64,000 bases of DNA, taken from NCBI GenBank assembly GCA_021741155.1, contig JAIOYP010000017.1, positions 1-64,000 on the forward strand, read 5' to 3'. How positions within the stretch are numbered: position 1 is the stretch's first letter; each line of letters opens with the position of its first letter. The notes beneath the pieces were generated by a model. It made no database searches, had not been told where the DNA came from, and saw nothing but the letters and a program-made list of their open reading frames with translations. Below are positions 45,171 through 49,226 of the stretch, in pieces. The stretch comes from Flavobacteriales bacterium (GTDB lineage Bacteria > Bacteroidota > Bacteroidia > UBA10329). The position numbers and the translations under genes are program-made.

Positions 45171-45307
45171 GGGCGTGTCCAAGATATTCTTGTCTGTAAA
45201 TTAGTGTAGAAAGTCCTCTTGTTATATAGAGAACTTTTTGGGTAAGTTTTTTTGGATATAGATTGATTACGGAGAGAGACATAATAATTGTTGCACGATT
45301 CGAATGT

Positions 45308-45345
45308 GTCCGTAAATTTGTCCGTGTCCGTAAAAACGTCCGTAA
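45308..45345 (+). repeat. Iterated GTCCGT boxes before the methyltransferase ATG
   Basis: GTCCGTAA occurs at 45308, 45326 and 45338, with a variant GTCCGTGT at 45320, so offsets are 12, 6 and 12. The stretch also stays open in the methyltransferase frame, so it may be coding if translation starts upstream. As DNA it looks like an iterated protein-binding site. Confidence 0.5.
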
Positions 45346-45347
45346 CC

Positions 45348-47555
45348 ATGGCCTCCTGCAATTTCTACTTAGATAAGCCCGATAAGAAAGGCTTCAGTCC
45401 AATTCATTTGAGAATAATCTGTGATGGCGAACAAGTTAAAGTGGCAACCAAAGAGAAGGTTGTCCCAAGCGACTTCGACAAACGAAAGCAGCGAGTGATA
45501 GAAGAAGCCGATAGGGCGACAATCATCAACCATTACCTCGGTCAACTGGAGCAGACGGTTAAGCAGCTATTCGGTAAGTCCACCAAAAAGAAGGTGACCG
45601 TTGAAGAAGTGAAATCTTCTCTAATCGATGTCGTTAGCTCCTATCAAGCCCATTCAACCGTTCAGATGGTTAAAGAACAGGTTTCGCTCTATGGGAAATC
45701 GTTTGCCTTTATCGACTTATTTGCTGGTGCTGGTGGGTTCAGCGAGGGTTTTCTACAAGCTGATCACAACAATAAGTTCTTCGACTTTATTGCTGCCAGC
45801 GACATCAATGAGAATTGCGAACTGACGCATGAGGTTCGCTATAATCACCAATTGGGACTTGACATGAAGTTCTTAAGGCAAGACATTACAGAACCGAACT
45901 TCTTAGATAATCTGCTTGCTCAAATCGGTGATAGAAAAGTTGATGTGGTTTGCGGAGGACCTCCCTGCCAAAGTTTTAGTCTTGCTGGTAAACGCAGGAA
46001 ATATGACAAGAAGGACGACCTCTTTTCACACTATCTAGAAGTGATTCGGGCATTGCGCCCGAAATATTTCGTGATGGAAAACGTAAAAGGAATCCTTACC
46101 AAAGAGCAAGGCAGAATTGCTGAGCAAATTCTCAAAGAGATGCAAAGCATCATCGACATGGAGGCGCTACCAAAACTGACCAAGTTCATTAAAGGGATGA
46201 AACCATCGTCCGCAAACAGTTTCGTATTCGATTGTATTGCTAATAGATTAGGTCACGAGGGATTGAAAGATAGTGAGTTAGACAAGGTGCGAGAGGAATA
46301 CATCGCCACTATGGATTCCTACTTCAAGCAGGTGACTCCAAAGATTGCGGACTACAAGACCAGCAAGACAGATAACTGTATCGCGACTATCCGCCATGGG
46401 CTCAATCTTTTACAGAGGCGTTCACGATTAATGAAGCTACAGCAAGAGGTTATCAAGGAAAAAGACCTGAACTACCTAGATAATGATGCCTTTGTGAACG
46501 ACTTCAACCATTTCATCGAAGTGCTTGAACCGGAAACGGTCATCAACAAGATGGAAGAGGCAATTGATGTTTTGGAGGTGCCAAAAGCACATCGTGTGAT
46601 GGTGGATGGCTTCAAGGAGGGACTTCGTATTTATGTGTCGTCCTTCGATGAATGCATCAGTCGTTTGCGACAACTTTGTTCCGAGTCCGAGGCTAAAAAA
46701 CTTGACACACTTTTGGATGAGATAACGCTTTACCGTATTGATGCTCCTTTCGTAGCCAACTCATCAAACTATGGTGTACCTCAGAATCGTGAGCGTGTGC
46801 TTTTTATAGGATGTCGAAAGGATCAGAAGATGATTACTTCCATACCAGCTACTGTGAAGGAAGACGAAAAGGTTTCGGTTTTTGAGGCGTTGCATGATTT
46901 AGATTTCCTAGGAAATAACGAAACGGCCTCCAACTATCTTGACATCAATCTAAAGGCTCGATACAATGGTAAAACGGAACACATGACCGCTCTTTTAAAA
47001 GAAAGGTCAGTGGATGGTTCTGTGAACGGTAAGGAGAAAAAGACCTATGCGCAATGGAGCAGACAGGGAAGGCTTATGTCTCAGCACGATCCGGCTCCGC
47101 CAGTTTACGTGCGTAACGCAGACGAACTTGCTCAAGGAAGATTGGTTCATGAACGACTTCCGAATCATCAGACCAGCAATCAGAACGAAACGGTGGTAAA
47201 GCGGCTGGAAGTGATACGCAGAACGGGCGATTACAAACAAGCACAGCCCGAACTTATTGAAAAAGGCCTTGCTTCAGAAAAGCGCAACTATAATGTGCTG
47301 AATCCTGAGAAGCAAAGCCCAACTGTGATGACCATTGCAGACGATTATATCCATTACCGCGTACCCCGCGCATTAACTGTAAGGGAAATGGCTCGACTAC
47401 AGTCATTTGATGATTCGTTTGTTTTTCAGGGCAAACGCTCTACAGGCGGAAATGGCCGTAAGTTTGAGGTTCCACAATTCACGCTAGTTGGGAATGCGGT
47501 GCCTCCTTTGATGGCGCGAGCCGTTGCCATGGAAATTCTAAGGAATATTCGTTAA
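45348..47555 (+). CDS. DNA (cytosine-5) methyltransferase with N-terminal integrase-arm-like domain
   Basis: A 735-residue methyltransferase moving a methyl group from SAM to C5 of cytosine. Motif I is FIDLFAGAGGFSEGF (about 121-135). Motif IV is GGPPCQSFSLAGKR with catalytic Cys207. Motif VI is MENVKG, VIII QNRERVLFIG, IX RALTVREMARLQSF and X LVGNAVPPLMARAVA. Two oddities stand out. Residues 1-90 (FYLDKPDKKGFSPIHLRI, SDFDKRKQRV) read like the arm DNA-binding domain of Bacteroidota tyrosine integrases. About 235 residues separate motifs VI and VIII, where classical enzymes have about 40. The extra 200 look helical and charged. In-frame GTG and TTG codons upstream (45288-45324) are alternative starts. 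It is convergent with, and overlaps by four bases, a candidate nuclease gene. Confidence 0.9.
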   Translation: MASCNFYLDKPDKKGFSPIHLRIICDGEQVKVATKEKVVPSDFDKRKQRVIEEADRATIINHYLGQLEQTVKQLFGKSTKKKVTVEEVKSSLIDVVSSYQAHSTVQMVKEQVSLYGKSFAFIDLFAGAGGFSEGFLQADHNNKFFDFIAASDINENCELTHEVRYNHQLGLDMKFLRQDITEPNFLDNLLAQIGDRKVDVVCGGPPCQSFSLAGKRRKYDKKDDLFSHYLEVIRALRPKYFVMENVKGILTKEQGRIAEQILKEMQSIIDMEALPKLTKFIKGMKPSSANSFVFDCIANRLGHEGLKDSELDKVREEYIATMDSYFKQVTPKIADYKTSKTDNCIATIRHGLNLLQRRSRLMKLQQEVIKEKDLNYLDNDAFVNDFNHFIEVLEPETVINKMEEAIDVLEVPKAHRVMVDGFKEGLRIYVSSFDECISRLRQLCSESEAKKLDTLLDEITLYRIDAPFVANSSNYGVPQNRERVLFIGCRKDQKMITSIPATVKEDEKVSVFEALHDLDFLGNNETASNYLDINLKARYNGKTEHMTALLKERSVDGSVNGKEKKTYAQWSRQGRLMSQHDPAPPVYVRNADELAQGRLVHERLPNHQTSNQNETVVKRLEVIRRTGDYKQAQPELIEKGLASEKRNYNVLNPEKQSPTVMTIADDYIHYRVPRALTVREMARLQSFDDSFVFQGKRSTGGNGRKFEVPQFTLVGNAVPPLMARAVAMEILRNIR

Positions 47556-48463
47556 AGAAGTCTGAAATACTCGAATCGACCCCCTTCTGAGAACTCAGAA
47601 AGATTTGAATTGATGTCCTCCAAAATGGAGCGATTGTAACCATCCAAATAATTATTTGCAAAAATCTCCTTGATCGAGCGTGCCACATGTTCCTTTGTCT
47701 CTTTGCCCCAATAGTTGCCACCAGAAAGACTTGTCACTCGCTTTACTGCCACTGAGTTGGCTTTGTAGACTGTCCTAACATTTGAGGGCACGGTAATGAA
47801 CGAATAGCTGAAATATGCACACTTCTGTATACTGAACGAGTTTCGACCGATAGTGATGTTCCTGTCTCGAAAGCCACCAGCTGAATAAATCATGTCCCAT
47901 AGCATGGGCACTTGTGCGTTATCGTTCCAATTGGTCTTGCACTGAATGATGCCAATTCTGAAATCGGAGAAGCTGTTGACAACGGCCTGATTGAGTGCAG
48001 CGTAATCTATCTGCCCCTTACTATTCAAAAGTCCCTGACTTGCAGCCGACTCTGTGAAAACAGGTTTATCTGGAAAGATGATGACTGTAATATCAGATTC
48101 CGTATTGCATGAGAAGTTCCCGTAGTTGACCGTAATGGCATCTTGAATAGGACTTGGCACGAGACTCATCTTCTTAATGGCAACCCCTCGTGTTCCGGCA
48201 GTGCAAAGATTAACGTACCAGGCAACAAGAGATTCCCATGCTGTACCTCCTGCCGACACTTCGCCCTGTCCGCGACCAGTTCCACCCGTGCTGGTGAAGA
48301 TGGCTGATAAGTGGTTGCCAAGGTTTAGTAAATCTTCCGCTCTCGGATTCTCACCAAGCAATTCCTTCATGGCTTCGCTCCAAATCGGCCAGCATCCTTG
48401 TACCGTATTCGTTGAGAAGATGGATTCAAGAGAGTTCCTTCGCAGGGCTTCGATTATGTTCAT
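47552..48463 (-). CDS. Putative type II restriction endonuclease
   Basis: A 303-residue protein with no family I can name with confidence. A Glu (E77 in TAWESLVAWYVN), Asp124 in NTESDITVII and Q174-C-K176 in FRIGIIQCKTNWND are spaced like the PD-(D/E)xK nuclease core, with Gln at the usual Glu. A glycine-rich loop (TGGTGRGQGEVSAGG) lies before it. The gene is convergent with the C5 methyltransferase and the two stop codons share TTAA (47552-47555). That arrangement and the core motif make it the probable partner nuclease. The ATG at 48463 is chosen over a TTG at 48514. Confidence 0.7.
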   Translation of the reverse strand: MNIIEALRRNSLESIFSTNTVQGCWPIWSEAMKELLGENPRAEDLLNLGNHLSAIFTSTGGTGRGQGEVSAGGTAWESLVAWYVNLCTAGTRGVAIKKMSLVPSPIQDAITVNYGNFSCNTESDITVIIFPDKPVFTESAASQGLLNSKGQIDYAALNQAVVNSFSDFRIGIIQCKTNWNDNAQVPMLWDMIYSAGGFRDRNITIGRNSFSIQKCAYFSYSFITVPSNVRTVYKANSVAVKRVTSLSGGNYWGKETKEHVARSIKEIFANNYLDGYNRSILEDINSNLSEFSEGGRFEYFRLL

Positions 48464-48556
48464 GGTGGGTTTGTATGTGGACAAAGTAACAGACTTTACG
48501 GTTACATAGTGCAAAACATCACACTTGTTTGATCAGCGTTCGCTTCCTGATTGCTG

Positions 48557-48703
48557 CAACCCAAATCCCAAAGCGGCACCACCCCAAAACCCTGCGGTCA
48601 CTCCGTAACTCAACGCGGAAGGTTCATAGATTAACGCGGTCACTGAGTAGAACGCTGCGGTCAGTCAATAACTCAACGCGGCATGCCGAAACCCAACGCG
48701 GCA
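48557..48703 (-). repeat. Degenerate 21-bp tandem array between nuclease gene and hexapeptide-protein gene
   Basis: Seven units of 21 bases begin at 48557, 48578, 48599, 48620, 48641, 48662 and 48683. Nearly all end in AACGCGG or a variant (CTGCGG, AAGCGG); CACTCCGTAACTCAACGCGG and CAGTCAATAACTCAACGCGG are the closest pair. The array reaches to within one base of the stop codon of the minus-strand gene at 48705. There are no spacers, so it is not a CRISPR. Confidence 0.8.
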
Positions 48704-48704
48704 G

Positions 48705-49226
48705 CTACTTCCCACTCGCATACCACCCCGAATACATCACATACTTACCGGCAATCGCTTTTAGCATTTCGGGAGCGGTAGTTGGGTCAAGTTGCTTCAC
48801 CTTCTTGGCAGGCGCACCCGCGTAGATGCAGTTGGGTTCGATGATGGTACCTTCAAGCACCACAGCCCCAGCCGCCACAATAGAACCTGAGTGCACCACG
48901 GCATCATCCATCACAATGGCGCCCATTCCTATCAAAACATTATCGTGCAGCACACAACCATGCACAATGGCGTTGTGCCCTACGGTCACATCATTGCCAA
49001 TACGAGTCGGATTTTTCTGATACGTGCCATGCACCACCGCCCCGTCCTGAATGTTTACCCTATCGCCCAGAATGAGGTGGTTTACATCGCCTCGCAGCAC
49101 GCAATTGTACCAGAAACTGCAATTGTCTCCCGCCACTACTTGGCCAATTAGTGTGGCATTCTCAGCCACAAAACAATCCTTTCCGAGTGTTGGCGTTACG
49201 CCATTTAACGTTCTAATAAGTCCCAT
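48705..49226 (-). CDS. Gamma-carbonic-anhydrase-like hexapeptide-repeat protein
   Basis: A 173-residue left-handed beta-helix protein of the YrdA/PaaY group. Hexapeptide repeats run through residues 15-140 (for example GDRVNIQDGAVVHGTYQKNP, GNDVTVGHNAIVHGC). Histidines in VVHGT, VGHNAIVHG are placed like the zinc ligands of gamma-class carbonic anhydrases. Homologues may hydrate CO2 or only bind metal. It probably forms a trimer in the cytoplasm. A 21-bp repeat array starts one base after its stop. Confidence 0.9.
   Translation of the reverse strand: MGLIRTLNGVTPTLGKDCFVAENATLIGQVVAGDNCSFWYNCVLRGDVNHLILGDRVNIQDGAVVHGTYQKNPTRIGNDVTVGHNAIVHGCVLHDNVLIGMGAIVMDDAVVHSGSIVAAGAVVLEGTIIEPNCIYAGAPAKKVKQLDPTTAPEMLKAIAGKYVMYSGWYASGK

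Follow-up and report, generated by a model that had tools for sequence, protein, structure and literature searches.

An integrase-type arm domain and a conserved promoter repeat array point to a probably self-repressing C5 cytosine methyltransferase in Bacteroidota

Whether a restriction–modification system kills a new host is decided by the timing of its methyltransferase relative to its nuclease, and the known timing controls are helix-turn-helix proteins or promoter methylation. A locus within a 64,000-nucleotide stretch of DNA from a Flavobacteriales bacterium (hereafter the window) raises the question of what a cytosine methyltransferase might gain from a DNA-binding domain of the type carried by tyrosine integrases, and whether that domain could be such a control. 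We follow the question here from the protein to its relatives, its promoter, and its nuclease partners.

The gene (45348..47555, + strand, with its ATG at 45348) encodes a 735-amino-acid (aa) protein which, judged by its sequence, is a C5 cytosine methyltransferase, with methylation activity predicted. Pfam family PF00145 (DNA_methylase) matches it at 193 bits, split over two stretches of the open reading frame (ORF), and C5 motifs I, IV (PCQ), VI (ENV), VIII, IX, and X all occur in order, bearing out a preliminary description in which all catalytic motifs had been called readable. They can be read directly in the protein as DLFAGAGGFSEG, GGPPCQSFSLAG, ENVKG, QNRERVLFIG, RALTVREMARLQSF, and GNAVPP, and the catalytic motif positions are mostly invariant across 36 aligned family members. 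Based on Pfam and the alignment, the core with motifs I–VI occupies residues 117–268 (45696..46151, + strand); the target-recognition region, from motif VIII to motif IX, spans residues ~493–655 (46824..47312, + strand; boundaries by alignment), and motifs IX–X fill residues 656–735 (47313..47552, + strand; alignment).

An insertion of ~190 residues (residues ~269–458; 46152..46721, + strand) interrupts the catalytic domain; it begins past the helix that follows motif VI and ends ahead of motif VIII. AlphaFold folds residues ~247–459 into a bundle of some twelve helices, for the most part at a predicted confidence (pLDDT) of 75–94, while the catalytic core is poorly modelled because the alignment is shallow. 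Because of this poor core, a Foldseek search of the full-length model against the PDB returned weak C5 methyltransferase matches only, and the insertion was left without a fold match. The large helical insertion of the preliminary description is thus real, but it occurs without the arm as well: a methyltransferase that lacks the arm, encoded on a prophage-type contig (L188), carries one of about the same length (19% aligned identity), so the insertion is separable from the arm and, on this sequence comparison, probably predates it. A more distant methyltransferase (L186) has neither arm nor insertion.

The N-terminus had previously been likened, by resemblance, to the arm DNA-binding domain of integrases over its first ~90 residues, and both profile searches and structure prediction now substantiate this assignment. 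The arm family PF17293 (Arm-DNA-bind_5) matches residues 9–75 of the whole protein at 27.5 bits, above its cut-off of 22.6, and residues 1–105 by themselves at 31.8 bits; the same family matches 16 of 16 diverse N-termini of the methyltransferase family, and it scores above the cut-off in two other members scanned at full length. In the AlphaFold model, residues 1–105 (45348..45662, + strand) form a separate domain rather than an ordinary extension of the methyltransferase fold (mean pLDDT 84.8), with three strands (residues 3–8, 17–25, and 28–38) and two helices (55–75 and 85–98), which reproduces the three-stranded sheet followed by a helix of integrase arms. When this model was compared with a library of predicted viral structures, integrases took the first three places (E = 2.9e-6, 5.4e-4, and 9.3e-4), the third at a TM-score of 0.77 and an rmsd of 2.9 over 105 columns. 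Against the PDB, Foldseek with the arm model gave no meaningful match and recovered no arm domain, and the arm sequence profile hit PDB chains at chance level only. In the reverse direction, we searched 296 genomes with a profile of the methyltransferase N-termini; 71 of them contain matches, most of which are ORFs of ~400–475 aa, and all eight of those tested, as well as the integrase of the window's own genome, have arm, SAM-like, and Phage_integrase domains. Since the N-terminal profile retrieves Bacteroidota tyrosine integrases of this architecture, we take the methyltransferase N-terminus to be homologous to integrase arms, on the evidence of profiles and models. The 735-aa protein is itself no tyrosine integrase, as Pfam finds neither SAM-like nor recombinase domains in it; nor is any helix-turn-helix family detected by Pfam in the protein or in the N-termini.

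The arrangement is not peculiar to the window. We found 40 homologues with the same layout at 54%–73% identity (one, L037, is cut by a contig end), so that it is neither a product of chance nor of assembly, and recorded their neighbours; within a panel of 395 Bacteroidota genomes, some of which may coincide with named ones, five carry the arm-methyltransferase. In the window, the unit (45171–48704) has murI on one side and a hexapeptide-repeat (gamma-carbonic-anhydrase-like) gene on the other. These two flanking genes are adjacent in two congeners (about 67 bp apart in G399 and 33 bp in G398), so the unit is an insertion; in another genome, G397, the same place is taken by other sequence of about 2.7 kb. 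The neighbouring genes differ at nearly every other family locus, as would be expected of a mobile defence unit.

What does travel with the gene is a short block of DNA directly 5′ of its start codon, which the preliminary description does not mention and which is reported here as a putative operator. In the window it covers 37 bp (45307..45343, + strand) and contains four GTCCGT-type direct repeats (45308–45313, 45320–45325, 45326–45331, and 45338–45343, + strand) at fixed spacings of 12, 6, and 12 bases. A block of this kind, with consensus TGTCCGTAAATTTGTCCGTGTACGTAAAAACGTCCGT, precedes 41 of 41 genes, the window included, a count drawn mostly from closely related Flavobacteriia, with 18 distinct blocks and perhaps five independent lineages. 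Allowing one mismatch to GTCCGT, four hexamers are present in 29 of the 41 members, three in ten, and the first two only in the remaining two (L035 and L042). The putative operator is more conserved than the methyltransferase gene: across homologues of 54%–73% protein identity the block is mostly identical to that of the window at 33–36 of 37 positions (36 in L005 and in the congener, 34 in L043, whose protein is 54% identical), with 23 and 24 of 37 in the two short-form members, while the adjoining stretches agree at 8–19 of 37 positions, that is, at random level. We considered whether the repeats might be coding sequence and rejected this, because the block lies anywhere from 38 to 44 nt from the ATG among family members, and all three frames occur.

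The block also overlaps the promoter. A box TAAATTTG (45313..45320, + strand), lying inside the putative operator, fits the consensus TAnnTTTG, and such a box is found within the block in 39 of the 41 members. TAnnTTTG is the -7 box of Bacteroidota promoters and occupies positions -12 to -5 (PMC9723704), which puts the expected transcription start at about 45325, flanked by repeats. On the -33 side the signal is weak: of the 41 members, seven, the window among them, have a TTG at a spacing of 19 nt (45291..45293, + strand, in the window), a possible -33 element, and 28 have TAG.

A search of the window's own genome with the first half of the block, allowing up to three mismatches, returned the methyltransferase locus only, and the integrase of that genome has no array. 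A core pattern, GTCCGTNNNNTTGTCCGT, occurs at 20 places in the 395 genomes; at four of these an arm-methyltransferase gene follows, and nothing comparable to the array was seen at the remaining 16. Matches to the repeat pattern in viral contigs are, as far as read, unrelated chance matches. We also considered whether the site might be shared with integrases that have related arms, which is unsupported: at all 26 arm-profile loci listed, GTCCGT is absent from the 150 bp that precede the longest ORF, so that what links the arm to the repeats is their co-conservation alone. Several copies of a different short repeat, around AACTCAACGCGG, are seen in the intergenic stretch 48600–48705, beside the hexapeptide-repeat gene.

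The conserved repeats on the gene's own promoter throughout the family make it most likely that the enzyme turns down its own gene through the arm. We put at about 0.75 the probability that this type II modification enzyme doubles as its own transcription repressor by way of the arm on the GTCCGT repeats; the preliminary description had suggested self-repression or placement on specific repeats as roles for an arm, and the promoter array lends both ideas sequence support. In outline, the arm (residues 1–105) would bind the direct-repeat array at 45307–45343 and, once bound, cover the -7 box and the expected transcription start, so that with enough enzyme present RNA polymerase would be blocked and the gene repressed. 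The catalytic domain would meanwhile methylate the recognition sites of the system through its ordinary target-recognition region; if the MvaI/BcnI nucleases described below are a guide, the methylated sequence may resemble CCNGG. Both the binding of the repeats by the arm and the resulting repression are inferred from sequence and from analogy. The idea of self-repression lends itself to direct testing, as the putative operator is short, keeps one position, and is better conserved than the methyltransferase gene.

An array that overlaps a promoter could be read by any repressor. Under one such alternative, another host regulator binds the repeats, and the arm serves a different purpose, such as contact with the nuclease or additional non-specific DNA binding. 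However, the array follows the gene across genera in which all of its surroundings differ, it was not seen in the upstream sequence read for the arm-less relatives L186 and L188, and it is the only one in its own genome at up to three mismatches, whereas one would expect a regulator of the host to act at further sites; we consider this explanation unlikely. The arm could, instead, be a relic of gene fusion that no longer binds DNA, with the repeats conserved as promoter only; in keeping with this, arm identities (30%–63%) fall below those of the core (74%–87%). Yet seventeen arm positions are invariant among 16 diverse members, and the 37-bp block reaches past the promoter box into the leader, beyond what a promoter needs, which makes the relic quite improbable.

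Integrases themselves use arm domains on arm sites at attachment sites (PMC8138268), and the unit is evidently mobile, its window copy lying between genes that are adjacent in congeners. The arm might be imagined to steer the methyltransferase to attachment-site repeats of a mobile element and so to affect integration or excision. This we regard as very improbable, as there is no integrase beside the gene and no second array in the genome at up to three mismatches, and the array keeps a fixed place over the promoter and is lacking at the genome's own integrase; arm-like repeats at attachment sites are by and large absent here.

The gene that comes next in most of the family, co-directional and usually without a gap, codes for a protein of ~393 aa in which an MvaI_BcnI domain scores 229–266 bits and whose best PDB match is R.MvaI; the preliminary description mentions neither this nuclease nor its replacement. 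The nearest relative, the congener at 73% identity, has this nuclease, and no match to it turned up in the window genome. In its place, a convergent gene (47552..48463, - strand, ATG at 48463; 303 aa) overlaps the methyltransferase at their stop codons and is a putative restriction endonuclease partner. A linked endonuclease is present across the family (MvaI_BcnI), and in the window the linked gene is nuclease-like by association only. The convergent protein falls in no Pfam, NCBIfam, or PADLOC family, and a proposal that it is a diverged MvaI/BcnI enzyme is unsupported, with no BLAST or Pfam match. It has three relatives in viral contigs (43%–47% identical), and in both neighbourhoods read, L186 and L188, a relative of the gene stands tail-to-tail with a C5 methyltransferase. 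We read it as an unrelated nuclease in place of the usual one, its DNA cutting being presumed from this company, and it may possibly represent an undescribed restriction endonuclease family. Its motifs NTESDITVIIFPDKP and GIIQCKTNWNDNAQ could be a variant PD-(D/E)XK site. The target-recognition region of the methyltransferase has not been exchanged along with the nuclease (69% identity to the congener and 40% to arm-less L188), which suggests that the exchanged nuclease may share its recognition site with the methyltransferase. A degenerate operator-like site, AGTCTGTTACTTTGTCCAC (48477..48495, - strand), lies 13 nt before the nuclease start codon; leaving the operator aside, it ranks third among such sites in the window, and it was noticed after the fact, so that any meaning is only suggestive.

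Several further observations concern the nuclease side of these loci. A candidate second case of the window-type nuclease, in genome G440, proved to be a truncated remnant (L257, 7354–7686), and no methyltransferase was detected near that stretch. Two unrelated loci (L013, 4104–6313, and L040, 3714–5205) have a two-gene cassette between the methyltransferase and the MvaI/BcnI nuclease, one product being 381 aa long and weakly similar to GmrSD_N and the other 353 aa long, and single defence-like genes are inserted between methyltransferase and nuclease in L012 (8211–9925, GmrSD_N family) and L033 (8473–9288, Mrr family). The MvaI/BcnI-family nucleases of the family (L005, 8205–9386, among others) have ~160 additional N-terminal residues without a Pfam match.

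On balance, we lean towards a wider account as well, in which an integrase arm was recruited as the operator reader of a self-repressing methyltransferase and the resulting unit spread in Bacteroidota, keeping its operator while its nuclease was exchanged. If true, this would add a third kind of DNA reader to those that time methyltransferases, one drawn from the integrases of mobile elements, and it would place an arm domain at work outside recombination. Among the papers searched, none names an arm DNA-binding domain together with a cytosine methyltransferase.

The closest known parallel for the proposed control is M.SsoII, in which an N-terminal helix-turn-helix binds a quasipalindrome between the genes, repressing the methyltransferase gene and stimulating the nuclease gene (PMC3978073; PMC6100179); M.SsoII, M.Ecl18kI, M.EcoRII, M.MspI, and others repress their own genes (PMC3978073). 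Like M.SsoII, M.Ecl18kI, and M.EcoRII, the enzyme described here joins a C5 methyltransferase to an N-terminal DNA-binding domain (predicted in our case), and in the SsoII type a regulatory site distinct from the methylation site lies near the promoter, to which the conserved array over the promoter box would correspond here. It differs in having an integrase arm instead of a helix-turn-helix, a GTCCGT direct-repeat array instead of a 15-bp quasipalindrome, and the ~190-residue insertion in its catalytic domain; as a helix-turn-helix was sought and not found, the arm-methyltransferase falls outside the SsoII group despite its SsoII-like proposed control. With the PF17293 tyrosine integrases of Bacteroidota it shares a homologous N-terminal domain with the same order of strands and helix, but it is a methyltransferase without their SAM-like core-binding or recombinase domain, and their genes, at the 26 loci listed, lack the GTCCGT array upstream. 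With the MvaI/BcnI restriction–modification systems, finally, the family shares its usual MvaI_BcnI nuclease neighbour, differing from them in the extra N-terminal stretch of that nuclease and, in the window genome, in the loss of the MvaI/BcnI nuclease and the presence of an unrelated gene.
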